Assembly (NCBI RefSeq): GCF_014132355.1
Contig: NZ_BLZO01000071.1
Span: 101,778-165,777, forward strand
Length of the DNA stretch: 64,000 nt
Direction of reading: 5' to 3'
From: Okeania sp. KiyG1
Lineage (GTDB): Bacteria > Cyanobacteriota > Cyanobacteriia > Cyanobacteriales > Microcoleaceae
Both the position numbers and the translations under genes were made by a program. A model generated the notes under the pieces. The model was given only the letters and a program-made list of their open reading frames with translations. It searched no databases and was not told where the DNA came from. Positions 28,670 through 41,815 of this stretch are shown here, piece after piece (position 1 is the first letter of the stretch; each line of letters begins with the position of its first letter).

Positions 28670-29494
28670 ATGTCTACTGTAAGTTTAATCAGGACTAATT
28701 CCTATCAGATAAATGAATTAGAAAAATCTATAGAGGAACTTTTAGAACCATTAGGGGGAATCAATACCTTTGTCAAGCCTGGCGATCGCGTCCTACTCAA
28801 ACCAAATTTGCTCACAGGTTCTCGCCCAACAAAAGAATGTGTAACGAGAAGAGAAATAGTTTATTGTGTAGCTAAAATTGTCAAAAAAGCAGGAGGCAAA
28901 CCTTTTTTAGGCGACAGTCCAGCTTTCGGTAGTGCTCTGGGTGTTGCAAAAGCAAATGGTTATTTATCATTACTCGAAGAATTTGACTTACCAATAGTTG
29001 AGTTTCATGGCAAACGTTACGAAACAGTTAGTCAAGAGTTTAATCATTTGCTGTTAAGTAAATCCCTAGAAAATTTAGAAAATAGAAAAATGAGAGAATT
29101 TGATTATGTAGTAGATTTTTTAAAATTCATTTTACTAATACCTATAGTAATAAGTGAAATAGTAATATTGAGAATACCAGGATTAACATTAATAAAAGTA
29201 TGTGAGAATCTAGAGATGTACAATATGTCAAATAAAATATGTAATATCTTAATATGGCATAACAATAACGTAAAACAATTCCTAATATTGTTATTTAACC
29301 TAGAAGATTTAGAAGAAGAAGAAATGACTAATGCAATGGCATCAATATTCGGGAGAAATTTATCAATGATATGTTTGATAGGACTAACAATAGCATCAAT
29401 GTCATTAATACCATCAGTATTAAATATGATTGAATTAAATATAATTAAGTTAGGCAGGAACATTAAAGAAATAATTGATATTGTTGGAAAATAA
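28670..29494 (+). CDS. DUF362-family protein, N-terminal half, fused to prophage end
   Basis: Residues 1-129 (28,670-29,056) are the front half of a DUF362 protein: PGDRVLLKPNLLTGSRPTKE, then AGGKPFLGDSPAFGSALGVA. Homology stops abruptly at LLLSK. The frame then runs by chance into the inserted element, adding a 145-residue membrane-protein-like tail that belongs to the element. The missing DUF362 C-terminal half is found in frame at 41,810-42,361. Joining at AGTAAA gives LLLSKEAMAADVIINLPKLK and a 312-residue protein of normal size. DUF362 proteins are often linked to iron-sulphur or ferredoxin functions; the precise role is unknown. As it stands the gene is interrupted, and the fusion is unlikely to be active. 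Confidence 0.85.
   Translation: MSTVSLIRTNSYQINELEKSIEELLEPLGGINTFVKPGDRVLLKPNLLTGSRPTKECVTRREIVYCVAKIVKKAGGKPFLGDSPAFGSALGVAKANGYLSLLEEFDLPIVEFHGKRYETVSQEFNHLLLSKSLENLENRKMREFDYVVDFLKFILLIPIVISEIVILRIPGLTLIKVCENLEMYNMSNKICNILIWHNNNVKQFLILLFNLEDLEEEEMTNAMASIFGRNLSMICLIGLTIASMSLIPSVLNMIELNIIKLGRNIKEIIDIVGK
29057..29062 (+). other. attL core (AGTAAA)
   Basis: This is the left junction of the integrated element. Host DUF362 codons end TTA AGT AAA, and element sequence starts TCCCTAG. The same hexamer lies at the right junction. The crossover lies somewhere within or at the edge of this shared core. Confidence 0.75.
29090..29494 (+). CDS. Hypothetical two-span membrane protein of the prophage
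   Basis: This is the element's own part of the fused frame. A natural start is ATG 29,090 (MREFDYVVDFLKFILLIPIV), giving 134 residues with a hydrophobic segment at about 10-30 and another near 90-110 (LSMICLIGLTIASMSLIPSV). A short acidic stretch (LEDLEEEE) lies between them. It is the only plus-strand gene at the left end, convergent with the Rep gene and 17 bases from its stop. I do not recognise the family. In the circular phage form it would follow the right-end sequences. It could be a host-interaction or morphogenesis membrane protein, or a chance AT-rich frame. Confidence 0.4.
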   Translation: MREFDYVVDFLKFILLIPIVISEIVILRIPGLTLIKVCENLEMYNMSNKICNILIWHNNNVKQFLILLFNLEDLEEEEMTNAMASIFGRNLSMICLIGLTIASMSLIPSVLNMIELNIIKLGRNIKEIIDIVGK

Positions 29495-29511
29495 TAATTA
29501 GTTAAAAAATA

Positions 29512-30468
29512 TTACTTACTATATCTAATTAAATCTTCATCCAAAGTACTAAATTTATATTTACCAAACTCAATCATCTCCTGAACTACACCATCCCCCA
29601 AAACCTCCCGAGCAATAGCTAAATTTTTAGAACACTGCCTAAACAACCACTCAACTTTTTTATCAAAACTGGTGGACTGTTTAGGAATAGAAAACTTCTC
29701 ACAACCACCACAATAATCAACAAATTTTTCCCATTGCCTAAGTCTGGAACAACGAGAAACTCTCTTCTTAGAAGAATTCACAAAATCAACAGAACCACAA
29801 ATATATTTAGGTATCTCATCAAGTCCTTGTTGTTGCAAAAACATTGCCATACCTCTTGCCCTATCATCCCTAAGCTCTAACTCCCAACGAATAGCATCTT
29901 TACCATGAACTGGAAGTGCCTCATAAACTCTGAGAAACTTTTTAGACGATCGCCTACCAAAAGTTTTAGTTACTCCAAGGCTAACATTAGTGCCTAAAGT
30001 AAACTGAAAATCTTCAAAAGGAGAACTGTGGAGACGAAAACCTCGCATATAACCAGAAGTAGCCCAAGAATGTAACTTCTTAGGAGTTAATTTTTTACTA
30101 TAGTCATTAAAAGCAATATCAATCCTAGTTAACTTTAGTTGTTCATCTAATATAATTGAAGCTAATAAATTAGATTGATTGTCCAAAGTTAATTCATCTA
30201 GGTAAGAGCCAGGAATTAAGAAAAAGCCTTCAACCAAATCTTTAACAGAATAACCAACTCTCACAGCTTTAAGAGAAACTCCCGAACGATCATAAACTTT
30301 TCCCATTCTAGTAGGAGTGTCGCGCCATTGAAAAGTATCATCTAAAGATTTAGCAAAATTAATCAACTCAAATTCAGAACTAAACTGACAAACACCTTGT
30401 AACCAGTGAATACCAACCTCAAGTTCACCAAATCTTTTTGTACTTACCTTTCCATTCAACGCAACCAT
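29512..30468 (-). CDS. rep: Rolling-circle replication initiation protein (RstA/Rep_trans-like)
   Basis: This 318-residue protein is of the replication-initiation-factor family found in filamentous phages and small plasmids. Recognisable blocks are LTRIDIAFND (113-122), which corresponds to the acidic metal-binding R-I/L-D-x-A-x-D/N-D motif, LRVYEALPVHGK (179-190), and RWELELRDDRARGMA (194-208). These are the characteristic central motifs. It would nick the double-stranded origin and drive rolling-circle synthesis of phage single strands. It is the last gene of the minus-strand operon and overlaps the 3' end of the Zot region by 44 bases. The frame is intact, and the start at ATG 30,468 is the only sensible one. 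The origin itself is not identified. Confidence 0.85.
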   Translation of the reverse strand: MVALNGKVSTKRFGELEVGIHWLQGVCQFSSEFELINFAKSLDDTFQWRDTPTRMGKVYDRSGVSLKAVRVGYSVKDLVEGFFLIPGSYLDELTLDNQSNLLASIILDEQLKLTRIDIAFNDYSKKLTPKKLHSWATSGYMRGFRLHSSPFEDFQFTLGTNVSLGVTKTFGRRSSKKFLRVYEALPVHGKDAIRWELELRDDRARGMAMFLQQQGLDEIPKYICGSVDFVNSSKKRVSRCSRLRQWEKFVDYCGGCEKFSIPKQSTSFDKKVEWLFRQCSKNLAIAREVLGDGVVQEMIEFGKYKFSTLDEDLIRYSK

Positions 30469-31405
30469 TTTTAATATTCAATAGCTTGGGTATTTTTCTA
30501 ACAATTTTAGAGAAAGTTGCTGGAAAATTAGCAAGATGATTCCAGTAAAAACTAAATCTATTAGGAACCATACAACTTTCTTTATCTAAATCCAATTCAT
30601 AATAATTAGGAGGTTGAGAATGAATGCGAAAACATTGAAAATTATAGCCTGCCAAATTTGCCTTAACCCAATTTTCAGAATGAGGGTCTAAAATCTCCTT
30701 GAAATAAATTTTCTGATATTCCTTGGGAAGTCTTCCATCTAAATTCTCACCTAAATCTAAAGTTGAATCATATAAATTAAACAACATTAAATCATGGCAA
30801 ACAACTGGTTTGTTCCAACGTTTAAGCTGATGTTTTTCCTAAATAAAAATTTATTCCTATTAACATGACTATACCATTTTTCATAGCTGTGTTTTTCATG
30901 AATACTAACGTCCTTAGAGACTAGAATTGGATAACCTTCAAGATTAGGGATTAAAGCACCTTCACAATTAACTACATAATGAGTCTGTCTTCTAAGTTCA
31001 GAATCTACACTAGCCCAATCTTGAGCAGCATATAGAAGGTCAGATTTTTCTTGCGAACCTGGGAAAGGCGGTTGATAATTTTATCTGGATTTCTAGTAGC
31101 TCTACGACTACTCAAAAATTGAGGAGCCTCATCAAAAAATATCTCAGAATTTTTACAGAAATTAATCCTAATATTGAATCCTTACTCTCTCCATAAGGAT
31201 TAAAATAGAAAAATTTACCTTCAATTAATTTTCGGCAAAGATTCCAATACTTCCTAAAAATCAAGTAATCCCAAAGTGCATCTAATCTAAAAGGAAAATT
31301 TGAAGCGATACACCTATTGTATTTATTTGCCATATACAAACCAATTTCGCAAATACTTAAAGACTTTCCGTATCCTTGAGCTCCAATAAATCCATAAGTC
31401 GGCAT
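30425..31405 (-). pseudogene. zot: Zot-like (pI) phage assembly ATPase, frameshifted
   Basis: The N-terminus MPTYGFIGAQGYGKSLSICE (start 31,405) carries the Walker A GxxGxGKS of Zot/pI proteins. These are inner-membrane motors that extrude filamentous phage. In a second frame the bases read INFCKNSEIFFDEAPQFLSS, with Walker B EIFFDEA, then RRATRNPDKI and LSQVRKKNLTFY. A third frame gives AAQDWASVDSELRRQTHYVV. A fourth (from about 30,835) reads QLKRWNKPVVCHDLMLFNLY and runs to the end at 30,425. Shifts lie near 31,176, 31,031 and 30,835, the last beside a T5 run. The full-length product would be about 325 residues, normal for the family. Either the phage is decaying or the assembly has indels. 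Confidence 0.75.
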
Positions 31406-32006
31406 CGTTCTGATTTAAGAAAATATAATTAATTATAAATATGAAGTAATGAATCGGCATGAGATGCCAAAAGATTAATATAAAGTGATAACCTAAAAAA
31501 TAAGGGATAGAATTTAATCTGTCTACAAGAATAAAGAATAAAGCAAAAAATATGTAATAAGCAACATGATTTTCATCGAAAATACATATAGGAGTATGGC
31601 AGAATTGCAATCTATGATTTATAGCCCTAAATCTGAAATTTAGACAGAGGATGATGAAAGTAAGAAACAAAATCAATAGTTTGATTTTTCGACTGATTTC
31701 AGGATTCAATAATATTGATACTAAAGTAGCAACAATACAGGATTTATTAGGAAGAAATAAAAATATATAGTGAAGGTTAAATGGAAATAAAACCAACCAC
31801 CATTTAATCATTTCATATCCAGGATGCGGATGCGCTTCTGGAATCAAAAAGCCTATACACAGGCTAATAACTGGAAAATAAGATATTAGTCTTTTAAAAA
31901 ATATCCTAAAGAATTTATCTCTAGAGGTTTCTACAAAATCATAATGTGGTGATGGCAACAATACCATCACCAAATAAACAACTATCAGTAAGACTGAAAA
32001 TCTCAA
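31323..32006 (-). CDS. Multi-span membrane protein of the phage operon
   Basis: This hydrophobic protein of up to 227 residues has about six membrane segments (MRFSVLLIVVYLVMVLLPS, SYFPVISLCIGFLIP, WWLVLFPFNLHYIFLFL and others). It begins with TTG directly after the stop of the major-coat-like gene (TAATTG), so translation is probably coupled. The last 27 or so residues overlap the Zot start in another frame, which suggests the natural end is earlier. By position it lies where pVI-like or other inner-membrane morphogenesis proteins occur, but it is larger than pVI, and I do not recognise a family. It could help anchor the assembly site. Confidence 0.6.
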   Translation of the reverse strand: MRFSVLLIVVYLVMVLLPSPHYDFVETSRDKFFRIFFKRLISYFPVISLCIGFLIPEAHPHPGYEMIKWWLVLFPFNLHYIFLFLPNKSCIVATLVSILLNPEISRKIKLLILFLTFIILCLNFRFRAINHRLQFCHTPICIFDENHVAYYIFFALFFILVDRLNSIPYFLGYHFILIFWHLMPIHYFIFIINYIFLNQNDADLWIYWSSRIRKVFKYLRNWFVYGK

Positions 32007-32258
32007 TTAGACAGCAGTGAAAGCTTTAGAAATTGAGAGCATAGCAATACGGGCAACAAATGGCGTAATTGATGCACCAAACGCAACCAAGGCTAAACCA
32101 CCAACTGAAACAACAGCATCTTCAGCAGTATCAGCAATTTGTTCGTAGTTGGGAGCAGGAGGATCGTTAGCAAGAGCTGCTCCAGTTAATGCAGTCAAAG
32201 TAAGAAAAGTGATAGCACCAGTCTTACCGCATTTTTGAGTGATTTTTTTAAGATTCAT
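32007..32258 (-). CDS. Major coat protein-like (pVIII-like)
   Basis: This 83-residue product has the layout of a filamentous-phage major coat protein. A basic, hydrophobic signal peptide (MNLKKITQKC through LTGAALA) is cut after Ala30. The mature chain is 53 residues, close to the 50 of the Ff phages. Its N-terminus is acidic (NYEQIADTAEDAVV), a membrane helix follows (VGGLALVAFGASITPFV, about 52-68), and the tail has basic residues (RIAMLSISKAF). There is no recognisable sequence identity to well-known phages, so the call rests on architecture and context: it sits between the pIII-like and Zot-like genes. Confidence 0.7.
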   Translation of the reverse strand: MNLKKITQKCGKTGAITFLTLTALTGAALANDPPAPNYEQIADTAEDAVVSVGGLALVAFGASITPFVARIAMLSISKAFTAV

Positions 32259-32303
32259 AATTTTAGCAATAGTTAAAGAGAGAATGAGAGGAAGAAAAAA
32301 AGA

Positions 32304-33071
32304 CTAAAAATGTATAACAGCTCTAATTATGAAGACAATTAAAAAAATGTGTTTCACGGCAGATGCAACCATTACAACTGCACAAAATTCCATGTCTTGA
32401 CCAAAAAGTGTTATTTCAGGACAAGCAGTATCACCAGCAGTGAAATTGTATGAAGGTACAAAAATATCTAGGGGAAATTTTGTAGACAACTTGGAAAATA
32501 AATAATCAAAAACATTGTTACAACTAGAGTCATCGTTATCATCATCAGGATTGTCGCCAGGAAAAATTTCACCACCGCAACCAAAAGTAGATATCTCATC
32601 CTGATACAGACTATCATTGTAATTATACTCTCCTTGACTAAAATTGTAATAACTAAAGTCAACTTCTAAAGTTGAAGACTTGATATCATCTACAAAGTCA
32701 GCATTTAAAGAGGATAACTTATGGAAACAACTAGAAATCATGGAAGGTAATGCACCATTTTGAATAAATGAGCAATAAGAATATATGATTTCAGTACAGT
32801 AGTAATAGTTGCAATTTTCAGGCAAATCATCTTTATGAAAATCATAGTAATCCACAGACTGTGCTATTGACTTCCAGGAGTCATCACATTGTTGAGGGGA
32901 AAGAGAAGGAACTAATTGGATACTATGATAAGTACAAGTTTCACCAGTTCTAATAGATTGATAGGTATATGTACAAACAACTGAATTCGCCTCAGAAGCA
33001 AGTGAAGGTGAAGAATATAAAACTATTGATATCCATAGAATAAAGACAAAGAAAAATCTAAGAAAAATCAC
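32304..33071 (-). CDS. Minor coat / attachment protein-like (pIII-like)
   Basis: This 255-residue protein has an N-terminal signal peptide (FFFVFILWISIVLYSSPSLA). A cysteine-rich extracellular domain has about a dozen Cys between residues 33 and 184. An Asp-rich linker follows (PGDNPDDDNDD, 171-181). The C-terminal domain ends in a membrane anchor (FCAVVMVASAVKHIFLIVFI) with a short IIRAVIHF tail. Signal, disulphide-rich host-binding part, flexible linker and anchored C-domain is the plan of inovirus pIII/TspB-type adsorption proteins. It starts with GTG overlapping the previous stop (GTGA), which implies coupled translation. The receptor specificity is unknown. Confidence 0.7.
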   Translation of the reverse strand: MIFLRFFFVFILWISIVLYSSPSLASEANSVVCTYTYQSIRTGETCTYHSIQLVPSLSPQQCDDSWKSIAQSVDYYDFHKDDLPENCNYYYCTEIIYSYCSFIQNGALPSMISSCFHKLSSLNADFVDDIKSSTLEVDFSYYNFSQGEYNYNDSLYQDEISTFGCGGEIFPGDNPDDDNDDSSCNNVFDYLFSKLSTKFPLDIFVPSYNFTAGDTACPEITLFGQDMEFCAVVMVASAVKHIFLIVFIIRAVIHF

Positions 33072-33226
33072 AACTTCCTCAAAAACATTCCCACTAAACT
33101 TGCTAACGCCACAAATGCAATCAGTGACAAACCAACTTCAGTTCCATAATCAACCGCTTTCATAGTTTCTTTTTCTATGTGATTAACCAATTCTTCTGCT
33201 GTAATTGTTGTTGCTATCAATTTCAT
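33068..33226 (-). CDS. Short single-span coat-like protein (52 aa)
   Basis: This small gene starts at ATG 33,226 and overlaps the previous stop as ATGA. It ends where the pIII-like gene begins (GTGA). The 52 residues have an amphipathic, acidic N-terminal half (TAEELVNHIEKETMKAVDYG), a membrane helix (VGLSLIAFVALASLVGMFL) and a basic end RKL, without a signal peptide. The design and its place in the operon resemble pVII/pIX-type tip proteins or a leaderless major coat protein. Tight overlaps on both sides strongly support it as a real gene despite its size. Confidence 0.7.
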   Translation of the reverse strand: MKLIATTITAEELVNHIEKETMKAVDYGTEVGLSLIAFVALASLVGMFLRKL

Positions 33227-33540
33227 ATCGGCCTCAATTGCTTCAATATTCTCATCGCTACAACTGCCACCACTATGATGAGTTCAGTCATCAAAAAAGG
33301 CTGAATTAAACCTTTGATAGATGCTATCACAACATCAGTTTGTTCTATAGAACAAACTTGAGGAGACTGAACATTATCTTCAGCTACAAAACCAGCAATA
33401 TCGTAACCATAAGCAAGACATTCTTCATCACTATCAACTTCCATTTGTTTACTCTGTGAAAGAGAAGTGCCATCATAGTCGTTATAAGAAACCTGGCATG
33501 TGCCATTACTGTGAAGCCTTGTTTGAAAGAATAAAGACAT
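33223..33540 (-). CDS. Single-span phage structural-like protein (105 aa)
   Basis: The hydrophilic, acidic N-terminal domain includes CQVSYNDYDGTSL and ECLAYGYDIAGFVAED. It is followed by one C-terminal membrane helix (FLMTELIIVVAVVAMRIL) and a basic end KQLRPI. The start ATG directly follows the upstream stop (TAGATG), and its own stop overlaps the next gene by four bases. No signal peptide is evident, so it would insert with the N-terminus either side of the membrane. I do not recognise a family. A minor coat role is an inference from context. Confidence 0.6.
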   Translation of the reverse strand: MSLFFQTRLHSNGTCQVSYNDYDGTSLSQSKQMEVDSDEECLAYGYDIAGFVAEDNVQSPQVCSIEQTDVVIASIKGLIQPFLMTELIIVVAVVAMRILKQLRPI

Positions 33541-33798
33541 CTAGTTCAAGGAACTCCTGATTAGTAGAGCAGTAATAGTTACAGGAACTGCATAACCTAG
33601 AAATTCTGTGATGTAAGGGAAAAATTTGTCTTTTACCATAAGAACAAACTCTTCCTTACTTGGGAGTGGTGCATCTTCAAAAGTTCCTAGCTCAACAGCT
33701 AAAATTCCACCATTGCACAAACACCCCAGAAGAATAACTGGAATGCAGACACCACAAACAAATCTGGCAAAAAGGATACGACGAGATAACCTAGACAT
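33541..33798 (-). CDS. Two-span small phage membrane protein (85 aa)
   Basis: It has a strongly basic N-terminus (MSRLSRRILFARF), a hydrophobic signal-like segment (VCGVCIPVILLGCLCNGGIL), a short acidic middle (ELGTFEDAPLPSKEEF) and a C-terminal membrane helix (ITEFLGYAVPVTITALLI). The pattern of leader, about 25 exposed residues, then an anchor is again coat-protein-like. It begins 11 bases after the upstream gene and its stop abuts the next ATG. A minor coat protein or an alternative major subunit are both possible. Confidence 0.6.
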   Translation of the reverse strand: MSRLSRRILFARFVCGVCIPVILLGCLCNGGILAVELGTFEDAPLPSKEEFVLMVKDKFFPYITEFLGYAVPVTITALLIRSSLN

Positions 33799-33809
33799 AT
33801 TTCCATAAA

Positions 33810-34172
33810 TTAGAACAAAAGTAGTTTCTTGAAGTAAACCAAGATTTTGATTGCCTTAAAAAATGCAATCAGTGTAAGCACCTGAAAAATACCACTATAA
33901 GCCTCAAATATAACAGCTGAACCAATAGGCGCTTGAATCGCGAATTCGGTTAGAACATTTGACAGCTTGATAGAATCAGGTGTTTCAGGTAAAAAGTTAA
34001 TAAAAAAGTCTAATAAGACAAAGTCACACGATGGCAAAGACTGAGCTAATGCTTTTGAAGACAAGGTAAACAAAAACGCAATCAATGCTAAAATAATTTT
34101 GGAGAAAGTTCTACCAATATTATTTTTATTTAGATGACGACATGGCAGGAGCTGGTGGAGGCGATTGAACAT
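33810..34172 (-). CDS. Signal-anchored phage membrane protein
   Basis: I favour ATG 34,172 (MFNRLHQLLPCRHLNKNNIG), giving about 120 residues. A start at 34,217 is also open and would overlap the upstream gene further. A leader-like stretch (IILALIAFLFTLSSKALAQS) is followed by a short soluble part with one cysteine, then hydrophobic segments (SAVIFEAYSGIFQVLTLIAF) and a lysine-rich end. It overlaps the 3' end of the preceding gene by 47 bases. Function is not recognised; its place in the phage operon suggests a structural or assembly role. Confidence 0.55.
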   Translation of the reverse strand: MFNRLHQLLPCRHLNKNNIGRTFSKIILALIAFLFTLSSKALAQSLPSCDFVLLDFFINFLPETPDSIKLSNVLTEFAIQAPIGSAVIFEAYSGIFQVLTLIAFFKAIKILVYFKKLLLF

Positions 34173-34536
34173 TGCCCTTGGTAGTAAAGTCAATAAACCT
34201 ATAATAAACATTTCCACCTAATCCCATTGCAAGAACTTGCAAAACTCCTTTAGAACCTAACTTAAATCTAGATGGGTCAAAACTTTGCACTGGAACTTTG
34301 CAGTTTATAGATGATTCAGTAGAGTTTTCTCCTAATGAATCTAAGACTTTTTCAATAGGCAAAATTTGAGAAGTCTCACCAATTTTTTGATACATTGCCG
34401 TAGCAAAGTTCAAGTGAACGTTATTAGGGTCCGGAGTTTTCGACCCATCTTTATTGTAGATAAAACACTCGGAGTGTCCTAAAAAAACAGCGTTGATTGT
34501 AAACAACGGTGAAAATGTTAATTTAATTTTTGCCAT
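34126..34536 (-). CDS. First gene of the phage operon (candidate ssDNA-binding protein)
   Basis: This soluble 136-residue protein opens the minus-strand operon. It has no signal peptide or membrane helix. The N-terminal part is beta-rich (MAKIKLTFSPLFTINAVFLG), and the tail is Pro/Ser-rich (SPPPAPAMSSSK). Filamentous phages need an abundant single-stranded-DNA-binding protein encoded near the promoter, and this is the only soluble small protein in the operon, so I propose that role. There is no sequence motif to prove it. Confidence 0.5.
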   Translation of the reverse strand: MAKIKLTFSPLFTINAVFLGHSECFIYNKDGSKTPDPNNVHLNFATAMYQKIGETSQILPIEKVLDSLGENSTESSINCKVPVQSFDPSRFKLGSKGVLQVLAMGLGGNVYYRFIDFTTKGNVQSPPPAPAMSSSK

Positions 34537-34742
34537 AACTTTAAATAATTTAAAGAAAGTTAATTTGATTTTGAGGTTATAATTCCAAGTAATCCTGAGA
34601 TTAGATTAATTAAAATCAATCTCAGGCTTTTTTCTTCCTCTCAATGATTTAATAAAAGCATAGTCGATTTCAAGAATAAAAACATTGTTGAAATCACTGA
34701 CTTTATAAAGTCAGCATTTGCCACAATTGAGATTTAGTAAGA
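34537..34742. promoter_or_regulatory. Divergent promoter region of the prophage
   Basis: This 206-base spacer separates the minus-strand structural operon from the plus-strand regulatory genes and must hold both promoters. It includes the hairpin at 34,594-34,626 and the inverted string TGACTTTATAAAGTCA (34,698-34,713), a perfect 16-base palindrome. The palindrome is a plausible operator for the winged-helix-like protein encoded at 34,743. Confidence 0.45.
34594..34633 (+). terminator. Hairpin with T-tail in the prophage control region
   Basis: CCTGAGATT (34,594-34,602) pairs with AATCTCAGG (34,618-34,626) and is followed by CTTTTTT on the plus strand. It has the form of an intrinsic terminator. 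Lying inside the leader region of the minus-strand operon, it may instead act as an origin or attenuator structure. Confidence 0.45.
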
Positions 34743-34979
34743 ATGAACAGTAACATTAAACTAAATTCATCTGAGATTTTAACTCTATTAATTTGTAAAT
34801 ATCCAATGACTATAAAGGATATTGTATCAAAATTGTTAGATATAGGAGTTATCAAATCTTCTAGCTATAGCAGAGGTTTGATAATGTCACTAAGGAGAAA
34901 AAATTTATTAGTTAAATCTCATGGGAAAATCACAAGAACTAATGAAGGAATGAAAATCATACAAGAATATGTACAATAA
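34743..34979 (+). CDS. Small winged-helix-like regulator (78 aa)
   Basis: This is a short basic protein. Its stretch SSEILTLLICKYPMTIKDIV, with LVKSHGKITRTNEGMKII, has the look of a compact winged helix: helix, helix, recognition helix near SRGLIMSLRRKN, and a wing. It is the first plus-strand gene, divergent from the structural operon, the usual place for a phage repressor or control gene. Its stop overlaps the next start (34,969) by 11 bases. The regulator call is inference. Confidence 0.5.
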   Translation: MNSNIKLNSSEILTLLICKYPMTIKDIVSKLLDIGVIKSSSYSRGLIMSLRRKNLLVKSHGKITRTNEGMKIIQEYVQ

Positions 34980-35181
34980 TGATATTTCAAGGCTGGTAAT
35001 TATCTGGCGCGCTCTCAGGTTTGCTTGTCAAGAAGTCAATGAAGATTACAAGGAAATTGCTATAAGTTGTCTGGTAAAAGCAACTGAACTTTTTCAGAAT
35101 ATGTCAGATGATGAAATCCAAGCAATCTATAACGATATCAACGAAAGTATAATTTTAAAGGAGGAAGAAAAATGTCTGTAG
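34969..35181 (+). CDS. Small helical hypothetical protein (70 aa)
   Basis: This acidic, all-helical protein (VNEDYKEIAISCLVKATELF, DDEIQAIYNDINESI) lies in a tight plus-strand trio, overlapping both neighbours. No known domain is visible. The strong sequence AAAGGAGGAAG near its 3' end serves the next gene. A phage accessory or control function is possible. Confidence 0.5.
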   Translation: MYNNDISRLVIIWRALRFACQEVNEDYKEIAISCLVKATELFQNMSDDEIQAIYNDINESIILKEEEKCL

Positions 35182-35327
35182 TACAAGGATTAAGAGAAAT
35201 AATGTTGGTTAAAGTTAAAGAAGTGTTAGACTCTCCTCAGTTTTGGAATGAGGTCTTTGAAAGTGAGAGTAATAGTAAGAAAAATACTAAGGATGAAGAG
35301 TATCAGAAAAAGAAGTTGAAATCGTAG
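35172..35327 (+). CDS. Small hypothetical protein (51 aa), probably frameshifted
   Basis: It starts at ATG 35,172 behind the very strong Shine-Dalgarno AAAGGAGG, overlapping the preceding gene by ten bases. The frame stops at TAG 35,327. Another frame continues smoothly from about 35,300 with VSEKEVEIVESEEVESNNVS to 35,398, an acidic tail typical of ssDNA-binding or chaperone-like proteins. The original was probably about 75 residues. The function is unknown. Confidence 0.5.
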   Translation: MSVVQGLREIMLVKVKEVLDSPQFWNEVFESESNSKKNTKDEEYQKKKLKS

Positions 35328-35408
35328 AAAGTGAAGAAGTTGAAAGTAATAATGTCAGCAATAATGATTCAATTTCAATATCACTTTCACAAATTTAAAA
35401 GTATTAAA

Positions 35409-35460
35409 AATCACTATCAAGTGAGATATTAAAAATAAGTGACTTTCTATGATAGTGATT
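35409..35460. repeat. Inverted repeat AATCACTATCA / TGATAGTGATT
   Basis: Perfect 11-base arms are separated by 30 bases, immediately after the small plus-strand genes. The internal GTGAG/GTGAC strings add further pairing. It is a candidate origin, packaging or regulatory hairpin of the phage, because filamentous phages carry such structures in the intergenic region. Confidence 0.45.
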
Positions 35461-35502
35461 AATAATATTCAATTTATAAAAACATTAAGCTAGGCAGAAT
35501 TG

Positions 35503-35527
35503 TAGGCATTTTTAAGTGCCTATTTTT
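35503..35527 (+). terminator. Intrinsic terminator (TAGGCA stem)
   Basis: TAGGCA and TGCCTA flank an eight-base loop and are followed by TTTTT on the plus strand. It would end the 34,743-35,398 transcript. Confidence 0.55.
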
Positions 35528-35580
35528 ATATCTATTATCGCATTATCTTAAGCTTAGACTAGAATTGACTTTTGAAACAA

Positions 35581-35628
35581 CCCCTAATAGCTGAAGGGTA
35601 ATTACAGGAAGAGTTAGGGGCGTTTTTT
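35581..35628 (+). terminator. Intrinsic terminator (CCCCTAA stem)
   Basis: CCCCTAA and TTAGGGG arms enclose a 26-base loop with inner pairing and are followed by CGTTTTTT. The downstream bases to 35,720 contain another CCCCCTATTAGTAAGGGG hairpin and a GC-rich block (GGCACCCCAGGGGTCCCC). The whole spacer is a candidate replication or packaging region. Confidence 0.5.
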
Positions 35629-35863
35629 ATGGCAATTTAACCCCCTATTAGTAAGGGGTTAAAATGTCATGGCCTCGTCGGCACCCCAGGGGTCCCCGCC
35701 TCCTTCGGCCTTCTTATTTTTTACTCCTAATTAAATATTTTTCTTGAGATAAAAATCACTATTGAATAAATTGGACTTACCAAGTTTTGTATTATGTACA
35801 GTGACAACAGAACTGTTTAGTGTACAATAGAATGAACAGTAAACTGAACAGGATACAAAACAA

Positions 35864-36463
35864 ATGATTGTCCAAGAATTACTATTAAGGTATGGCCTAA
35901 GCTCTCGCGCAGCGTTATACACCAGGTTAAAAATTCTAGAAATTGAATTAGCGAAAGATAATAATGATAAAGCTTTTGCAACTTCAAAACAATTAAAAGA
36001 GTTAGATATGTTGCACGAACATATTAAGGCTGGTAATAAAATGTCCACATTTGTTAGAGAAGTTAAAGCAGATGTAGTATATGGCAAGACTAAACAGTAC
36101 AGTGAACAGTACAGTGAACAGTACAGTGAACAAGAAAAGTCCAAATTTGGCTCCATCACTGAACAGTTCACAGAACAGACCACAGTACAAAGTAAAAATA
36201 AAAGTGCTGAAATTCTTTTAGAAAATATAATAGGAGCAATTATTCATAATATGAATCCCCGTGAAAATTCACTTCAAATGCACAGAGATTTGAAAGAATG
36301 TTCAGAAGAAAAATGGTTACTTACTACTAAGCAATTAGAAGAATTAATAGGAAGAAAACCCAGGAAATTAAAAGATAAAAATTATTATATTTTTGGAGGG
36401 TGGAAGTTTGTAGTAACAGGAAAGTCAGGGAGTCAAAATCTTTGGCAAGTTGAAAAGTTGTAG
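35864..36463 (+). CDS. Predicted DNA-binding protein with internal QYSE repeats
   Basis: This 199-residue protein has an N-terminal helix-turn-helix-like part (VQELLLRYGLSSRAALYTRL) suited to DNA recognition. A helical middle is followed by a low-complexity linker with tandem SEQYSEQYSEQ, then a C-terminal domain (WLLTTKQLEELIGRKPRKL and IFGGWKFVVTGKSG). Plasmid- or phage-encoded MerR/HTH-like control proteins have this flavour, but I cannot assign a family. Its DNA is notable: the ACAGTACAGTGA repeats in the linker (36,096-36,130) resemble strings in the promoter just upstream (TGTACAGTGACAACAG and GTACAATAG), so it may bind its own gene. Confidence 0.55.
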   Translation: MIVQELLLRYGLSSRAALYTRLKILEIELAKDNNDKAFATSKQLKELDMLHEHIKAGNKMSTFVREVKADVVYGKTKQYSEQYSEQYSEQEKSKFGSITEQFTEQTTVQSKNKSAEILLENIIGAIIHNMNPRENSLQMHRDLKECSEEKWLLTTKQLEELIGRKPRKLKDKNYYIFGGWKFVVTGKSGSQNLWQVEKL

Positions 36464-37070
36464 AAAAGGACAAAAAAGTTTGAAAGCTCAAAGAATACTA
36501 TAGTCGAAGAACACACAATCTAGGCCGCTACGCTAAATCTTTTCCCCAACACGACCCTACAAAATCTAATGTAAAAAGCAAAGGTTGTTGGTGGACGGGT
36601 CGGTTGGGTCGCTGACGCTAAAAGATTTGCCTAGATTGTGTTCAGCTTAAATTGTTACAGATAGGTTAAAAAATAAATGAATGATTGAAAAGTAAAAGCC
36701 TTATATATCAATGATTATAGTCAACACGCACCTAGGAAGCTGTGTCAAATATATGTGTATCAATGTAAAGTATATTTTCCCCATTGTCGCGATCGCTTTT
36801 CCTGGAAATTTTTTTCCACTTGGAAAGTTTAAAGAAGTAGCTAGGGGTAGTTTGAGGGTGCTAAGAGCAATGATTTATAATATCTCTGAGAAAAGAATAA
36901 TCAAAAAATCTATGTAACCCCGATTAGCTCGTGATTTATGGAAGAATTACTACGAGGAGTTCTTATTTTTTTGTTGGGTGCTGAGAAGAATGAATTTTAA
37001 TTCTATAGTCACCAACAAAAGGGAGTAGGGGTAATAGGAGAGAATTTTTCTACAGTAAGATTAATTGGAC
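36464..37070. other. Spacer within the prophage, no convincing gene
   Basis: It contains the hairpin element at 36,509-36,643. A 68-codon frame at 36,711-36,917 lacks a ribosome binding site and good codon character. A GCGATCGC site lies at 36,788. The GAGTAGGGGTAATAGGAG stretch at 37,022 is low complexity. Confidence 0.4.
36509..36643. repeat. 135-bp inverted-repeat element inside the prophage
   Basis: The left arm GAACACACAATCTAGGC, then AAATCTTTT after nine extra bases, is mirrored by AAAAGATTTGCCTAGATTGT then GTTC on the right. The central loop is GC-richer. It could be a MITE picked up by the phage or a functional hairpin such as a packaging signal. Confidence 0.5.
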
Positions 37071-37096
37071 ATAAAAAAAAAGGCGATCGCTCGCCT
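37071..37096 (-). terminator. Terminator of the 37.1-37.8 kb minus-strand gene
   Basis: On the minus strand AGGCGA, GCGA, TCGCCT forms a short GC-rich stem followed by a run of ten T. It lies 30 bases after the stop of the 37,126 gene. The stem is built around a HIP1 octamer. Confidence 0.6.
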
Positions 37097-37125
37097 AGTC
37101 GAAGCATTTGTCTAATAGAATTAAC

Positions 37126-37821
37126 CTAAAATATTATATCGTCTACTAAATCTTCTATTTGACTAGCTGAATATCCGGCTTTAATCATTTCTTCCACTAT
37201 TGATTTTTGAGTGTTGGAAATTTTGGTCTTTTTAACTCGACGCTGGTACTCGTCACGGCAAAAATACCAAGTAATTGCTCCAGAGGTTTTACTTTCATAT
37301 TTATCTAACCACCCAGATGCTGCTTTGGTATTTTTACTACCTGGAGGTTTTCCTCCTTTGTTCCTGGGTAAGTTGTTAGTTTTTGCTCCGGATGCCTGGA
37401 GATTTTCGGAGCAAATACTACCCTCAGATGTTTCGGAGCAAATACTGTTTTTTGTTGATATATCTAGTTTAGATAGTATTTGCTCCAAAGGTTGCTTGTC
37501 TAGTATTTGCTCCAAAAAGTTCATGTCAACTCGCCCACCGATAGACTGATATCTATTGATTAATTTTTTAATGTTGGCCTTGATAGAGTCTGGGGTGATG
37601 GAAGGTTTTTTAGATGCTGGAACTTTTGGGAGGTAGGCTAGTTTAACTTTTGTGTTAAGTAGTTTTATCCTACCCATTATTTCTCCGGTGTCCACTACTA
37701 ATTCTCCGGTGTCAGGGTTGAATTTTTCTATTTGATAGGTTTGGCCTTTGAGATTGATTTTTCTTGTATTGAGTCGGGTGGTGTTGATTTCTATTAAGTC
37801 TCCTGTAGCTACTATGGCCAT
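37126..37821 (-). CDS. Hypothetical DNA-binding-like protein carrying a symmetric site array
   Basis: I choose ATG 37,821 (MAIVATGDLIEINTTRLNTR), giving 231 residues; an upstream ATG at 37,878 is also open. The N-terminal 80 residues are beta-rich (KINLKGQTYQIEKFNPDTGE), like a small barrel. A helical stretch (IKANIKKLINRYQSIGGRVD), duplicated LEQIL and SICSE elements, and a basic linker (RNKGGKPPGSKNTK) lead to a C-terminal helix-turn-helix-like part (SIVEEMIKAGYSASQIEDLV). I do not recognise the family. The codons for the LEQIL and SICSE segments form four copies of GGAGCAAATACT in exact mirror symmetry (37,408-37,513), which suggests that the gene contains its own protein-binding locus. 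Confidence 0.55.
   Translation of the reverse strand: MAIVATGDLIEINTTRLNTRKINLKGQTYQIEKFNPDTGELVVDTGEIMGRIKLLNTKVKLAYLPKVPASKKPSITPDSIKANIKKLINRYQSIGGRVDMNFLEQILDKQPLEQILSKLDISTKNSICSETSEGSICSENLQASGAKTNNLPRNKGGKPPGSKNTKAASGWLDKYESKTSGAITWYFCRDEYQRRVKKTKISNTQKSIVEEMIKAGYSASQIEDLVDDIIF
37408..37513. promoter_or_regulatory. Mirror-symmetric array of four GGAGCAAATACT sites
   Basis: Two direct copies (37,408-37,419 and 37,435-37,446) and two inverted copies (37,475-37,486 and 37,502-37,513) are spaced 27 bases within each pair. They are exactly symmetric about 37,460.5. They lie inside a coding sequence. Such geometry is typical of iterons, centromere-like partition sites or recombinase-binding sites. 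Confidence 0.55.
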
Positions 37822-37908
37822 TTGATTACTCCTAGATGTGGCGATCGCTTTTTTCGATACATGAAAAATGCCGACCACTTATTGGGCGATCGGCATTGGT
37901 GATAGTTT

Positions 37909-38049
37909 TTATTCTGATGCACTTATGGAACCTGATATTTGACTCTTTAACAGAGAAAGTTCTTGTTCAAATTTTTCAGTGAACTGTTGATTTTCTTCTA
38001 ACCCTTTTTCCAATATGCCACGGTGTGCATCAACATATTTGTAAAACAT
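37909..38049 (-). CDS. Short coiled-coil protein downstream of the RHH gene
   Basis: The last 62 codons of a longer frame encode a convincing coiled coil (LANQLELLTQMFYKYVDAHR, EKFEQELSLLKSQISG). I mark ATG 38,049 as a minimal start; a TTG near 38,064 or an overlapping start inside the RHH gene are alternatives. The upstream part of the same frame overlaps the ribbon-helix-helix gene antiparallel in phase and looks like noise. It may be the partner of the RHH protein in a small operon, but no known antitoxin-toxin pair is recognised. Confidence 0.4.
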   Translation of the reverse strand: MFYKYVDAHRGILEKGLEENQQFTEKFEQELSLLKSQISGSISASE

Positions 38050-38075
38050 TTGTGTTAACAGTTCCAATTGGTTGG

Positions 38076-38291
38076 CTAGTTTTTTAAAATCTCCCCCTCT
38101 TCCAATGTCGTTATCGTCTGAGATTTTGCCTCCATCTGCTCCCGTATTATCTGCTCGACTACCTGACTGCGACTCACTTCTGGTTCGATTTGAGAAGCCA
38201 ACATTTGTAAGTAGTCCAGCGCTGTCCGAGTCAAACTGACTGAGGTTGAATATTTCGGTTCGTTGTAATGTTTCGGGCTGATTTTGGGCAT
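38076..38291 (-). CDS. Ribbon-helix-helix (CopG-like) DNA-binding protein (71 aa)
   Basis: The central stretch YSTSVSLTRTALDYLQMLAS, then SRSQVVEQIIREQM, fits the beta-strand, helix, helix pattern of RHH repressors, which control plasmid copy number, partition or toxin-antitoxin genes. It starts at ATG 38,291. Directly upstream are four TAGCAATA half-sites (38,322-38,395) that are likely its operator, lying between it and the divergent gene at 38,453. It probably autoregulates and controls the plus-strand pair. The assignment to the RHH fold is good; the regulated process is inferred. Confidence 0.65.
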   Translation of the reverse strand: MPKISPKHYNEPKYSTSVSLTRTALDYLQMLASQIEPEVSRSQVVEQIIREQMEAKSQTITTLEEGEILKN

Positions 38292-38321
38292 CTTGATTAT
38301 TTAAACAACTCATACATATTC

Positions 38322-38395
38322 TAGCAATATGATATAGACTAAACATACAAACATTCTAGCAATAATATATTGCTATTACAACATTATATTGCTAA
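38322..38395. promoter_or_regulatory. Operator cluster of TAGCAATA half-sites
   Basis: CTAGCAATATGATA (38,321), the near-palindrome TAGCAATAATATATTGCTA (38,357-38,375) and ATATTGCTAAG (38,386) give four half-sites. They lie in the divergent promoter between the RHH gene and 38,453. The spacing suits cooperative binding by RHH dimers. Confidence 0.55.
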
Positions 38396-38452
38396 GATAA
38401 ATATATACAAAAAAATAAGCTATAAGGCCATTAACCTAAAGGAGCAGGATTA

Positions 38453-38959
38453 ATGAAAAAACTCAAACTCAAGTACATGAAGCGGAGAATCTACAAACTA
38501 GGAATCTCCCCAGCAGAAGTACGTAGTAAATTTGGCGACTTGAGATTCCGCAAAACCTGGGAAGCTGCTTATGCACACTACATAAAGAATGAGGTTGTGA
38601 CCACCCAGCAGAGTCAACCAAAAGACAATGAGTGTAAGGTTGTTCCAGTTAGGCCAGTAATTGAGAAAGTAGTAAATCGCGATCGCGACAGTGGAAACGA
38701 ATTCTATCGCGACTATAAGAAAGACAAAAATGGACAATTCTTATTATTTAATATAGAAGCTTACAGACAAAATAATGTCATTCCATTCAAACCAACCATC
38801 CGCAAAGGCAGAGTCAAAAGACAGAAAAGCTTTAGTCAAGGTAAGAAATTGTTATTATTTGAAGTTGAGAGAATTAAAGCCTACGCTAAGTCAGATAATT
38901 TATGGGCTGAAGAGTTTCCAGAAATTGCTAATATGTTTGAACAGTGGGCAAGAATTTAA
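38453..38959 (+). CDS. Basic hypothetical protein of the prophage (168 aa)
   Basis: This lysine- and arginine-rich protein (MKKLKLKYMKRRIYKLGISP, RKGRVKRQKSFSQGKK) is predicted to bind nucleic acid, with no recognisable domain. A good AAAGGAGCAGG ribosome binding site lies nine bases before the ATG. Its TAA is followed at once by the ATG of the next gene, so the two are an operon, probably under the RHH operator upstream. It might act in replication or packaging. Confidence 0.55.
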   Translation: MKKLKLKYMKRRIYKLGISPAEVRSKFGDLRFRKTWEAAYAHYIKNEVVTTQQSQPKDNECKVVPVRPVIEKVVNRDRDSGNEFYRDYKKDKNGQFLLFNIEAYRQNNVIPFKPTIRKGRVKRQKSFSQGKKLLLFEVERIKAYAKSDNLWAEEFPEIANMFEQWARI

Positions 38960-39988
38960 ATGAGGAAAATTCCACTACCAATATTTGAAGAAATAATTGT
39001 TGATAAAGACACTCCAGAGTGGATAAAATCCATCGAAAAATGTCGGAATAAATATGAATTATCTTCATGTGGTACTGAAGAATTACATCAATCTTTACTT
39101 GATAGCTCCTACAACTACATTAAATTTGGTATCAAAATTAAAGCAGCAATTCAAAATAAACTATACATTAAGAAAGGCTTTAAGACTTTTGAAGAATATT
39201 GCCTCAAAGTTTTCAGAATGTCTGAACCGTATTGTCGAAAAATTATGCGGGCTGCCCGTATGGCAATTATATTGATAAGATGTGGATTTAAAGAGCTGCC
39301 AAGATGTATCTCTCATGCCTACAAATTTGCTGAATTAGTGTCTGATAGACAAGGGAAACGCACTAATGAAGAAATTAAAATTGCTGCACAGAAATGGCAA
39401 GATGTATTAGATGCTGCTGAAATTTCTAAGACTCCTATCACTACTAATTTTATTCTTAAAGTCTTAGAGCCTAATTCATATACTCCATTTAAGGCTAAAT
39501 TTAGTGAAGCAATTTATGATGCTTTGAGAGAATTAACTAATTTTTGGAGTTGGAAAAATAATTCAGAAGTTGATATAAATCAGTATCTCAGCATCACAAT
39601 TGAACAAAGTTATTTACAATTAATTAATTCTCAAGAGTATCAAGAATATCAGGAAAGTGCTTATAAATATAAAGACCAGGAAGTTGATGAGTATTATTCA
39701 GTAAATGGTGGAAATAAAGTATCTAGAGAAGAAATAATACAGACAGTCTCAAAGGAACATTTAGAAGATGAATCAGAGGAAACTTCTACAGTAGTTGAGA
39801 CTGAAACTAACAATTCAGTTGTAAGATATAACTCTGAAATAACTTTGGCTAAAGCTTTTAGTCATCCAATAAAGTACTTGGAAAAGTTAAGGGTTAGTAA
39901 ACCTCATCTTTCAGAACAAGTTGACCATTATATCAAGTTTGTATTAGAGAAAAATGAGAATGAAAGATATGGAGACAGACCTCCGTGA
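38960..39988 (+). CDS. Plasmid-type DNA-binding protein (ParB/KorB-like HTH region)
   Basis: This 342-residue protein has IKKGFKTFEEYCLKVFRMSE, then PYCRKIMRAARMAIIL. That is the pattern of a helix-turn-helix found in replicon-encoded ParB/KorB-like or DUF3102-like proteins (a -FEEYC-R-GIS---AY-LI-A style motif). The C-terminal part is acidic and low complexity, then ends in a helix (HPIKYLEKLRVSKPHLSEQV). ATG directly follows the previous stop. It probably helps maintain or regulate the element. The match is to a style of motif, not to a specific named protein. Confidence 0.55.
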   Translation: MRKIPLPIFEEIIVDKDTPEWIKSIEKCRNKYELSSCGTEELHQSLLDSSYNYIKFGIKIKAAIQNKLYIKKGFKTFEEYCLKVFRMSEPYCRKIMRAARMAIILIRCGFKELPRCISHAYKFAELVSDRQGKRTNEEIKIAAQKWQDVLDAAEISKTPITTNFILKVLEPNSYTPFKAKFSEAIYDALRELTNFWSWKNNSEVDINQYLSITIEQSYLQLINSQEYQEYQESAYKYKDQEVDEYYSVNGGNKVSREEIIQTVSKEHLEDESEETSTVVETETNNSVVRYNSEITLAKAFSHPIKYLEKLRVSKPHLSEQVDHYIKFVLEKNENERYGDRPP

Positions 39989-40267
39989 TTGGAAATAAAT
40001 ACCTTCTAAAAGACCTGCCTGATGATTTAACCAGCAGGAATTAATGAAACGGCTATTGATTTAGCTGTTGCAGGTTTACCTGCATATACTCAGTAAGTTA
40101 CCTGCTTTGTAAGTAAAGTGAGCGTTTACGCTTTTGCCTCTTTATGAGCAACCTTACTGAGTTTATAAACACTGTACTTTGAGAGTAAAGTAAATGGTTA
40201 TTGCAACCGTTTTCAGGTGATTTGTGAGTACATTGTTTTTTTCTTTAATTTGATATCACCACGACAA
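39989..40267 (+). ncRNA. Structured spacer upstream of the IS110 recombinase, candidate guide (bridge) RNA
   Basis: This 279-base non-coding region contains several hairpins: CCTGC...GCAGG (40,015-40,039), GCAGGTTTACCTGC (40,071), AGCGTTTACGCT, and long arms CTCAGTAAG / CTTACTGAG enclosing 40,089-40,161. It includes TAAGTAAAG (40,110-40,118), also present in the reconstructed empty target. It also includes AGAGTAAA (40,182-40,189), also present at the element's right end. Known IS110 elements encode a bridge RNA with target- and donor-pairing loops beside the recombinase. The order target-then-donor fits, but the assignment is an inference. Confidence 0.35.
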
Positions 40268-41452
40268 ATGAGAAAAACAGTTATTGGAGGCGACATCTGT
40301 AAGTCGTCTATTGTTTGCTGGAAACTTGATGAGATTCCTACTGATTTACGCAAGTATTTTAGAGATAATAAGAGACTTAAGAGAACTGACCCGTTAACTT
40401 TCAACCTCAATTCAGAAAGTGTGGGAAAGTTTGTTGAGTTTTTACAAACTTCTGATGGTTTGGTGATGGAGCCAACTGGAGGCAATTATAGTTATCTGTG
40501 GGCTAAAATTGCTGAGACTCATCAAATACCTGTATTTTGGGTTGGTCATCCAGAGGTTAAGTATTTAAGGAAATCGGAGAGATTACCGGATAAGAATGAC
40601 CAGGCTGATGCAATAGCATTAGCTGTTTATGGTTTGAAACATTGGGATAAGCCGGAAGCCTTTCTTAAGTTTGAGCCGGGCTTGATTAAAGAAATTAACG
40701 ATAGATATTTACAGCTACATTCACTGGCTAGAATTCAATCCCCAATTATTAATCGCTTGAGACAACAAATGGCTAGGGAGTTTCCGGAAGTAGCTCATGT
40801 TAAGTCACTTCCAGCAGGTGATGGTTTATCTCCGCTATGGGCTTGGATTGCTGGTAGAGAAAGGTACACGAATAGAGGAGCTAATAAATATAGTAAAAAG
40901 TATGAAAAATCTGTAGCTCCTCAGTATGGAATAGAGATTTCTGAGTTTTCTAGGTTTTTAGCTAATCAACTGTGTGAATTGCATCTACATGAGTTTTTAC
41001 TCCGGAGAGAGTTAGATAGTTTGGTTTATTCTCCAGAGTTCGATCACTTTAATCAAGTGTTCAATTTATATAATTTTGGTTTAATGGTCCGCGCTATGTT
41101 GTTGGTGCGTTGTTATCCATTTAGTAGATTTGAAAGTGAGGGAGCTTTTAAGAGACGTTTGGGATTTGGTAGAGAGGAAAAATCTTCTGGAGATATGGAA
41201 AGATTTAGTAAGTCTGGTTCTTCTTTGGCTAGGTCTGAATTGTATCTTTGGTGTGTGACTGTTGTGGGAAAAGGAAGACTTATTTCTAGAGTTGGATTGG
41301 AAATAATAGCCAAGTTTGAATACTATAGGGAACAGTTGCAAAAAGACCCTAATAAAGGCCAAAAGTTTACTGATTTAGTCAGGTCTCGAACTGTGGCTTT
41401 TATGTTGAGAAGATTGTTTCGGGACTTGAAAAGAAGTTGCATGAGAAGTTGA
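40268..41452 (+). CDS. IS110/Piv-family DEDD recombinase (probable phage integrase)
   Basis: This 394-residue recombinase starts at ATG 40,268; a GTG frame upstream lies in the structured spacer. The N-terminal RuvC-like DEDD domain has Asp9 (IGGDIC), Glu68 (VMEPTGG), and Asp111/Asp114 (KNDQADA). The C-terminal IS110 transposase domain ends with the serine-rich SKSGSSLARSELYLW (about 314-328), the region of the nucleophilic Ser in this family. IS110/Piv enzymes recombine without long terminal repeats, and some filamentous phages (for example in Neisseria) use them for integration. Position next to the right junction and the clean, in-frame insertion support that role. No other integrase is present in the element. 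Confidence 0.85.
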   Translation: MRKTVIGGDICKSSIVCWKLDEIPTDLRKYFRDNKRLKRTDPLTFNLNSESVGKFVEFLQTSDGLVMEPTGGNYSYLWAKIAETHQIPVFWVGHPEVKYLRKSERLPDKNDQADAIALAVYGLKHWDKPEAFLKFEPGLIKEINDRYLQLHSLARIQSPIINRLRQQMAREFPEVAHVKSLPAGDGLSPLWAWIAGRERYTNRGANKYSKKYEKSVAPQYGIEISEFSRFLANQLCELHLHEFLLRRELDSLVYSPEFDHFNQVFNLYNFGLMVRAMLLVRCYPFSRFESEGAFKRRLGFGREEKSSGDMERFSKSGSSLARSELYLWCVTVVGKGRLISRVGLEIIAKFEYYREQLQKDPNKGQKFTDLVRSRTVAFMLRRLFRDLKRSCMRS

Positions 41453-41809
41453 TATTAAAAGTCGTCTAAAAATATCTCTAAAAATAGTAAATCATTCCTA
41501 AGACATCTAACAATCTTTGTTGTGTTCGTGATGCAATACTAAAATATTTATTAGACAACTTTCTAGCCTTACTAACAAATGTACTATTATTAGACAAGGT
41601 AGAAGCTACATAATGTCTTTCAGAAATTCTGTAATAAAGTTGAATTTTTTGATAATTCTGATTAAAGTAGGCAGAGTATTTAGTTTCATTTTTGTGGTAA
41701 AGAATTTGTTTAGATACTTGAAAACAATTTGTATGAGCGATCGCTATTAATAAAATTCATACTATTATTATGAGCGATCGCTTATACTTTAAACATCAGT
41801 CCCTTGTAG
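41453..41809. other. Right-end region of the prophage with partial minus-strand frame
   Basis: No complete gene is visible. On the minus strand a frame without a start codon (about 41,478-41,741) reads NYQKIQLYYRISERHYVAST and YFSIASRTQQRLLDVLG before a stop, and may be a gene remnant. Two GCGATCGC octamers occur at 41,738 and 41,773. The last bases (CAGTCCCTTGTAG) adjoin the right core and would form half of the phage attachment site. Confidence 0.35.
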
Positions 41810-41815
41810 AGTAAA
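41810..41815 (+). other. attR core (AGTAAA)
   Basis: This is the right junction: element bases end CTTGTAG, and the DUF362 reading frame resumes as AGT AAA GAA GCA ATG. The hexamer is identical to attL, and joining the two restores the host gene without loss or gain of a base. Confidence 0.75.

Follow-up and report, generated by a model that had tools for sequence, protein, structure and literature searches.

A filamentous-phage-like provirus in a DUF362 gene of Okeania and its probable integration by a bridge RNA

How does a filamentous phage come to lie within one particular gene of a cyanobacterium? The question is raised by a stretch of 64,000 nucleotides from Okeania sp. KiyG1 (contig NZ_BLZO01000071.1, positions 101,778 to 165,777; hereafter the window), in which a DUF362 gene is divided by an insert of approximately 12,753 bp. 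Integrating phages are generally thought to find their sites by protein-DNA recognition or, in case of many filamentous phages, by use of the host XerCD. Here, we argue that the insert is very probably the provirus of a filamentous (inovirus-type) phage, which would have been integrated by RNA-guided recombination. An earlier note on this DNA had recorded the phage operon, an observation that stands except for a broken zot frame, but it had overlooked two features near the right end of the element, a recombinase of the IS110 family and a structured RNA.

Insertion site, recombinase and guide RNA

The borders of the element were derived from blastn comparisons of both flanks. The left match to host relatives stops at 29062 and the right one starts at 41810, and the six bases AGTAAA, found at 29057-29062 and 41810-41815 as left and right crossover regions, are shared by target and element at both ends in all seven relatives compared base by base. 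These seven represent the best of 20 fetched loci (four from the same genus, three from the same family), and the DUF362 gene is uninterrupted in each of them; in a further genome of the same genus, G003, no DUF362 match was found. The 5' part of the gene (28670-29062, plus strand), the left target side, ends in AGTAAA and matches PF04015 with E = 1.1e-14 over 28670-29056, and the 3' part (41816-42361, plus strand) matches the same family with E = 4e-36 over 41822-42358. Thus the coordinates given earlier for a DUF362 gene split at AGTAAA by a 12.75-kb insert hold. The insert has a G+C content of 33.5%, compared with 39.0% in the host part of the window. Its left end (29063-29511), the right-donor side, carries no assigned gene, and its right end (41453-41809), the left-donor side, terminates in GTAGAGTAAA.

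Next to the right end, a DEDD recombinase of the IS110 family with 394 amino acids is encoded on the plus strand (40268-41452; the mechanically defined open reading frame, ORF, begins at 40217). It has the DEDD residues, RuvC-like and Tnp domains and the conserved SG. The three top fold matches of its predicted model are ISCro4 and IS621 entries, with 291 to 296 of the 394 residues aligned; a profile search of PDB sequences gave a chance match only.

Upstream of this gene lies a bridge-RNA-like structured RNA (40013-40248, plus strand, limits approximate). The segment 39995-40267 has a folding z-score of -4.11, and none of 200 shuffled sequences was as stable. A consensus of the window and six Okeania relatives (seven sequences) comprises four helices with 42 pairs, 22 of which show compensatory changes on both sides. 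In this alignment 93.5% of the cells are paired versus 79.5% after shuffling, none of 500 shuffles reached the observed value on any of five measures, and pairing falls to 31-58% when the partners are slid by one to three columns. A 5' stem is followed by two stems with internal loops, which is the layout given for bridge RNAs in the parts of PMC11208160 drawn on here.

The two internal loops provide the predicted link to the borders. In the putative target-binding loop (40088-40162, plus strand), the left guide GTAAGTAAAG (40109-40118) and the right guide GCCTCTTTA (40136-40144) predict the target GTAAGTAAAGAGGCA; the empty DUF362 site reads TTAAGTAAAGAAGCA and agrees at 13 out of 15 positions. 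When both strands of the host DNA in the window are searched (102,466 positions), this site is the unique best match to the predicted 15-mer. The putative donor-binding loop (40170-40235, plus strand) has its left guide, AGAGTAAAG, at 40182-40190 and its right guide at 40210-40223. Its segment AGAGTAAA is identical to the right end of the element, and the left end, AAATCCCTAGAAAA (29060-29073), pairs discontiguously with the right guide, with one skipped base on each side. In this alignment, made by inspection, AAATC(a)CCTGAAAA stands opposite AAATCCCTAGAAAA, and the same skip of one base after ATC was seen by inspection in two other cyanobacterial elements, L069 and L099, which are described below.

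In the proposed course of events, the replicating circular phage DNA would carry the donor joint, at which the right and left ends meet (GTAGAGTAAA/TCCCTAG). An RNA transcribed from the region in front of the recombinase gene would bind this joint through its second loop and, through its first, the host DUF362 sequence TTAAGTAAAGAAGC, and the recombinase would exchange strands at the common AA-containing core. The outcome would be a provirus between the two DUF362 halves with no duplication beyond the common bases, and excision would be the reverse of this process. The earlier note had called the element possibly excisable; an open recombinase frame together with a matching guide RNA lends weight to that possibility.

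Several of these features resemble IS621 and ISCro4 as described in excerpts of PMC11208160 and PMC11187229: the DEDD recombinase has its best fold match there, the RNA with its two internal loops lies upstream of the gene, and the left guide corresponds to the top strand and the right guide to its complement. The discontiguous pairing of the right donor guide is likewise found in IS621 (PMC11208160, in the same excerpts). Unlike these minimal insertion sequences, the mobile unit would here be a phage genome or island of 12.75 kb. A further difference is the position of the RNA, about 11 kb from the left end, so that a promoter formed by the joining of the ends would be distant. The bridge RNA paper (Durrant 2024, PMC11208160) and the seekRNA paper (PMC11187229) deal, in the sections used, with insertion sequences and the Piv invertase. 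Searches of the published literature on bridge RNAs, seekRNA and IS110 in phages or cyanobacteria (preprints not covered) listed no paper reporting such an RNA from a filamentous phage.

The filamentous-phage gene block and its counterpart in L069

The left part of the element holds, on the minus strand, the compact operon on which the earlier note had based its proposal. A rolling-circle replication initiator (29512-30468) matches Rep_trans, PF02486, with E = 4.2e-22, above the curated cut-off, and has PHROG 453, replication initiation protein, as its best PHROG (phrog_453, E = 3.1e-13). The profile search thus bears out the Rep assignment and places the protein in the inovirus-type family of rolling-circle Reps. 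Relatives of this Rep occur in five of 149 genomes, the source genome counted, and in tblastn comparisons with phage records six records were matched at 22-27% identity. A decayed relative of rep and of its neighbouring 120-aa ORF was observed in the Okeania genome G002 (L072:11633-12177), whose DUF362 gene is intact.

The assignment of a Zot-like protein stood in part. A piece with Walker A (GAQGYGKS) is present within a 97-aa ORF (31112-31405) and is similar to the L069 Zot (36% over 72 aa, E = 9.5e-8; E = 4.8e-8 in a second comparison), but the zot/pI-like region (30425-31405) is broken, with its pieces spread over three frames. A Walker-B-like stretch and the remainder lie in other frames, down to 30425. 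The Walker A piece is also weakly similar to the Zot of L087 (E = 0.004), and 30425-30787 to the C-terminal half of the L069 Zot (E = 0.085). No Pfam or PHROG family was matched by the pieces, and a PF05707 search found Zot in 11 out of 386 genomes drawn from the phylum, the genome of the window not being among them.

The small proteins reported earlier, i.e., a coat-like protein with a signal peptide, a Cys-rich anchored protein and several single-span proteins in a compact operon, are all present. Upstream of zot follow a membrane protein with five hydrophobic segments (31323-32006, no Pfam match), an 83-aa coat-like protein with a signal-peptide-like start and one hydrophobic segment (32007-32258), and a 255-aa anchored pIII-like protein with 11 Cys residues (32304-33071). 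The latter two matched no family, the coat-like protein being recognised by length and hydropathy. Next come a 52-aa single-span protein (33068-33226), three further small membrane proteins (33223-33540, 33541-33798 and 33810-34217), and a 136-aa protein with neither a hydrophobic segment nor a family match (34126-34536), which by its position could be a single-stranded DNA-binding protein.

A second element with a similar plan is L069, found in genome G168. Its Zot scores 26.9 bits with PF05707 (cut-off 20.3), its Rep_trans protein 60.0 bits (cut-off 29.6) and its IS110 recombinase 36.2 bits (cut-off 29), and the frames of Zot and Rep are open. The gene order is similar to that of the window, with the coat-like and pIII-like genes swapped. 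L069 also carries a transposase-like ORF (9738-10892) between the pIII-like gene and the end of zot, so that this element is not pristine either. The C-terminal part of the 255-aa protein resembles L069 8638-9549, and the 52-aa protein has a counterpart of 52 aa (in both cases none of 2000 shuffles scored as high); the similarity of the two coat-like proteins is weak, with 30 of 2000 shuffles as high. It is this comparison of gene plan and proteins that leads us to read the insert of the window as inoviral, and together with Rep_trans and the coat-like and pIII-like genes it supports the integrated cyanobacterial inovirus, as proposed earlier, as the best reading.

The genes in the remainder of the element lie on the plus strand unless stated. 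Small ORFs of unassigned function start at 34743, 34969, 35172 and 35864 (34743-36463); the first and the last gave no confident family match, and tblastn found no match for the ORFs of this segment in related islands. A perfect inverted repeat of 13 nt, ACACAATCTAGGC, with 103 nt between its arms, lies at 36513-36641 and is perhaps an origin or the remnant of another element. By tblastn, related islands share a gene on the minus strand (37126-37878) and two more genes at 38453-38959 and 38960-39988. Another minus-strand ORF (37909-38346) is partly matched in one Nostoc island, L107 (47% over 49 aa), and the ORF 38076-38291 overlapping it has no match in related islands. Approximately one third of the element (37.1-41.5 kb) is a module with genes that are also met in islands without any detected inovirus gene. 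No tRNA was found in the window, and no Rfam family reached its gathering score, the sole Rfam match being at chance level (E = 0.64).

About 1.2 kb to the left of the DUF362 gene (26363-27476), a MerR-Resolvase serine recombinase stands beside an ORF with an OrfB/IS605 helix-turn-helix, a gene pair which we take to be IS607-like.

Guides in related islands and in Thermus phages

In L069, the same reading can be compared with an empty site. The site is uninterrupted in five congeneric genomes (L142-L146); a sixth, L141, starts just 136 bases before the match, too late to be informative. The sequence TTAGCACGAAGAAATCC stands in three of the five, the other two differing to the right of the core, and the RNA of L069 spells AGCACGAAGAAAT, i.e., 13 contiguous bases of the target. 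The predicted 16-mer has 13 matches here and is tied by one other place among 15,238.

A more general comparison was made over 27 cyanobacterial elements with fixed rules. The right end was defined as the first exact match downstream of the recombinase to the donor-loop 7-mer, which is present in 23 of them, and each element's right target guide was set against the seven bases that follow the core of two bases. Guide and target agree at 126 out of 161 positions, with six of seven in the window; guides paired with the sites of other elements agree on average at 2.49 of seven, and the maximum in 200,000 permutations was 91. An element with its ends joined (L099) and one with a frameshifted recombinase (L097) were retained and counted as misses. 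Second copies of the same place or site (e.g., L058, L068 and L111) are not among the 27, nor are L070/L113, L071, L073, L115, L116 and L119-L122, the latter group being fragmentary or without an RNA of this type on visual inspection.

How far is this machinery tied to inoviruses? L095, L098 and L101 are islands with an IS110 recombinase and a bridge RNA that carry the right-hand genes of the window element upstream of the recombinase. No Rep_trans or Zot was found in the islands that share these genes, which were read without fixed left ends. Small tyrosine recombinases (PF00589) lie close by in L095 and L098, and a nearby protein with a C39 peptidase in L098 is an endolysin according to PHROGs; the three islands may represent other phages or satellites. 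A tree of 26 recombinase rows places the recombinase of the window as sister to that of the element L095 from Okeania sp. SIO3B5 (support 96/85), in which no inovirus gene was found, and that of L069 in another clade (100/100). An inoviral label on this tree therefore needs two changes, with the caveat that contig ends truncate several rows. At L095 the empty site is unreadable owing to repetitive DNA beside the junction. As judged from these sequences, recombinase and RNA are a module common to inoviruses and other phage-like islands.

Two observations concern the ends of such islands. The right end of a related bridge-RNA island (L058, L098 and L128) occurs at the same site, before a gene that is presumably ndhF-like, in three of six Okeania genomes (G000, G005 and G002), and the other three (G001, G003 and G004) have different DNA there, which we read as the empty site. 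In Nostoc calcicola FACHB-3891, an 8811-bp contig, L099, has a right end joined to a left end (AAAGTGAATCCCC, at 4754-4766). It is circularly permuted relative to the integrated L100, and its contig ends do not overlap; this would fit a non-inoviral bridge-RNA element in circular or tandem form.

Filamentous phages with IS110-type transposases are known from the literature (PMC11437467 and PMC11209303, in the parts used). For Thermus, excerpts of PMC11437467 describe proviruses in which an IS110-family transposase gene and rep occupy opposite ends, an arrangement like that of the window, and the joint is thus expected between these two genes. In phiOH16, Zuza8 and Zuza27, the recombinase gene is indeed followed by rep. 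Loss of the transposase gene is described for phiOH3 in the same excerpts. The donor loop of the RNA upstream of the recombinase, aligned for all three and compared in three of three phages fetched, spells the transposase-rep joint at 16, 17 and 16 of 17 positions, respectively. The best place of this 17-mer in each genome is the transposase-rep gap, the next best reaching 11 or 12; the ranking covers the whole phage genomes, with the RNA gene counted, under a rule set once earlier matches had been seen. An unanchored donor/target score was equalled for phiOH16 by none of 400 and one of 300 shuffles and by one of 200 other windows, and for Zuza8 by one of 300 shuffles; it failed for Zuza27, where 179 of 300 shuffles were as high. 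In contrast to the 394 aa of the window recombinase, that of the Thermus phages has about 300 aa, and the orientation of the joint varies among the three.

Neisseria Nf (PivNM) and Acinetobacter Af1 likewise combine the gene plan of inoviruses with an IS110-type transposase, to which phage integration is tentatively ascribed in the extracts of PMC11209303 (citing Kawai 2005); a guide RNA is not mentioned there. Two salivary inoviruses show a paired guide match of the same kind, though not a decisive one, near the transposase stop (L153:2429 and L154:2437); it uses the same positions of the upstream region and is AT-rich. Scans of viral contigs with the Rep, recombinase, coat protein and recombinase alignment of the window and with the Zot of L069 found no relative, and the recombinases of the window and of L069 had no tblastn match in phage records. 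A viral-contig scan with the phiOH16 transposase returned L150 as the sole match, a record of the size of phiOH3.

Weighing the explanations and their meaning

A number of results weigh against RNA-guided integration of a phage. The window recombinase is only just above its Pfam cut-off, and no promoter stands out for the RNA at 40013-40248. When scored by unanchored exact matches, 199 of 414 control stretches were as high as the window target, and likewise for the donor; this score does not discriminate for the window, so that the guide claim rests on the anchored comparison and the test over the 27 elements. The guide positions, moreover, were picked by eye with the targets visible before rules were fixed, with the cyanobacterial elements as well as with the Thermus 17-mers, and in the former case permutation removes this bias only in part. 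Four of the 27 elements (L057, L114, L101 and L074) were left out as they have no exact left-donor 7-mer, and L097, L099, L104 and L106 agree at only 2, 1, 3 and 4 of seven positions, respectively. At the ndhF-like site the right guide matches and the left guide fails. Zuza8 and Zuza27 have the joint on the minus strand and phiOH16 has it on the plus strand, and five salivary IS110 inoviruses (of 12 inovirus-named records matched) gave no clear signal in the unanchored test. Finally, the zot frame of the window copy is broken, and this copy may make no particles.

With these points in mind, one might suppose that an ordinary IS110 insertion sequence jumped into an inovirus provirus which itself had been integrated by XerCD or another recombinase. 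IS110-type genes are indeed common in these genomes (matches in 58 of 197 relatives). Roux 2019, in the portions drawn on here, pools transposases as integration or selfish genes and holds that virus-domesticated and selfish-element transposases cannot be told apart by sequence. A separate hop of this kind is nevertheless very unlikely in our view, as the sequences matched by the two RNA loops are those of the insertion site and of the outermost ends of the 12.75-kb element as a whole, and the same arrangement recurs in L069 and in the Thermus phages. Hardly more probable is a rolling-circle, plasmid-like island with membrane proteins that was integrated by a bridge RNA and is not a virus at all. 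Such an island would fit the sharing of the right third with islands that yielded neither Rep_trans nor Zot, the broken zot frame and the coat-like genes without family match, but the gene plan and several proteins agree with L069, where both Zot and Rep_trans exceed their cut-offs, and the Walker A piece itself matches the L069 Zot at the E-value given above.

A different matter is the present state of the copy. It may be a dead relic, once integrated under RNA guidance and since deprived of virion formation and excision, which is compatible with the proposed mode of arrival. The broken zot frame suggests that the copy could be defective, and the decayed relative of rep and its neighbour in the congeneric G002 points the same way; on the other hand, the frames of Rep, recombinase and coat-like protein are open and the RNA stems intact, and the breaks in zot could be assembly errors as well as decay. 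We regard such a relic as possible, though less likely than not.

Concerning the wider family, we infer that IS110-bearing filamentous phages may integrate by means of a bridge RNA. It seems likely to us that RNA-guided recombination is a general lysogeny route of filamentous phages with IS110/Piv recombinases, in which the phage genome would serve as the donor, the two loops would name the chromosomal site and the phage joint, and changes in the first loop would resettle relatives in different genes. The components are all of known kinds, and what is new, as far as the literature searched shows, is a virus integrating by means of a bridge RNA. If true, this would be an RNA-guided way to lysogeny, in which a guide RNA of the virus appears to pick the attachment site through base-pairing. 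This offers a mechanism for IS110-bearing filamentous phages for which transposase-linked integration had been noted, and the isolated Thermus phages Zuza8, Zuza27 and phiOH16 allow a direct test. The attachment sites of IS110-bearing filamentous phages would then become predictable from sequence.

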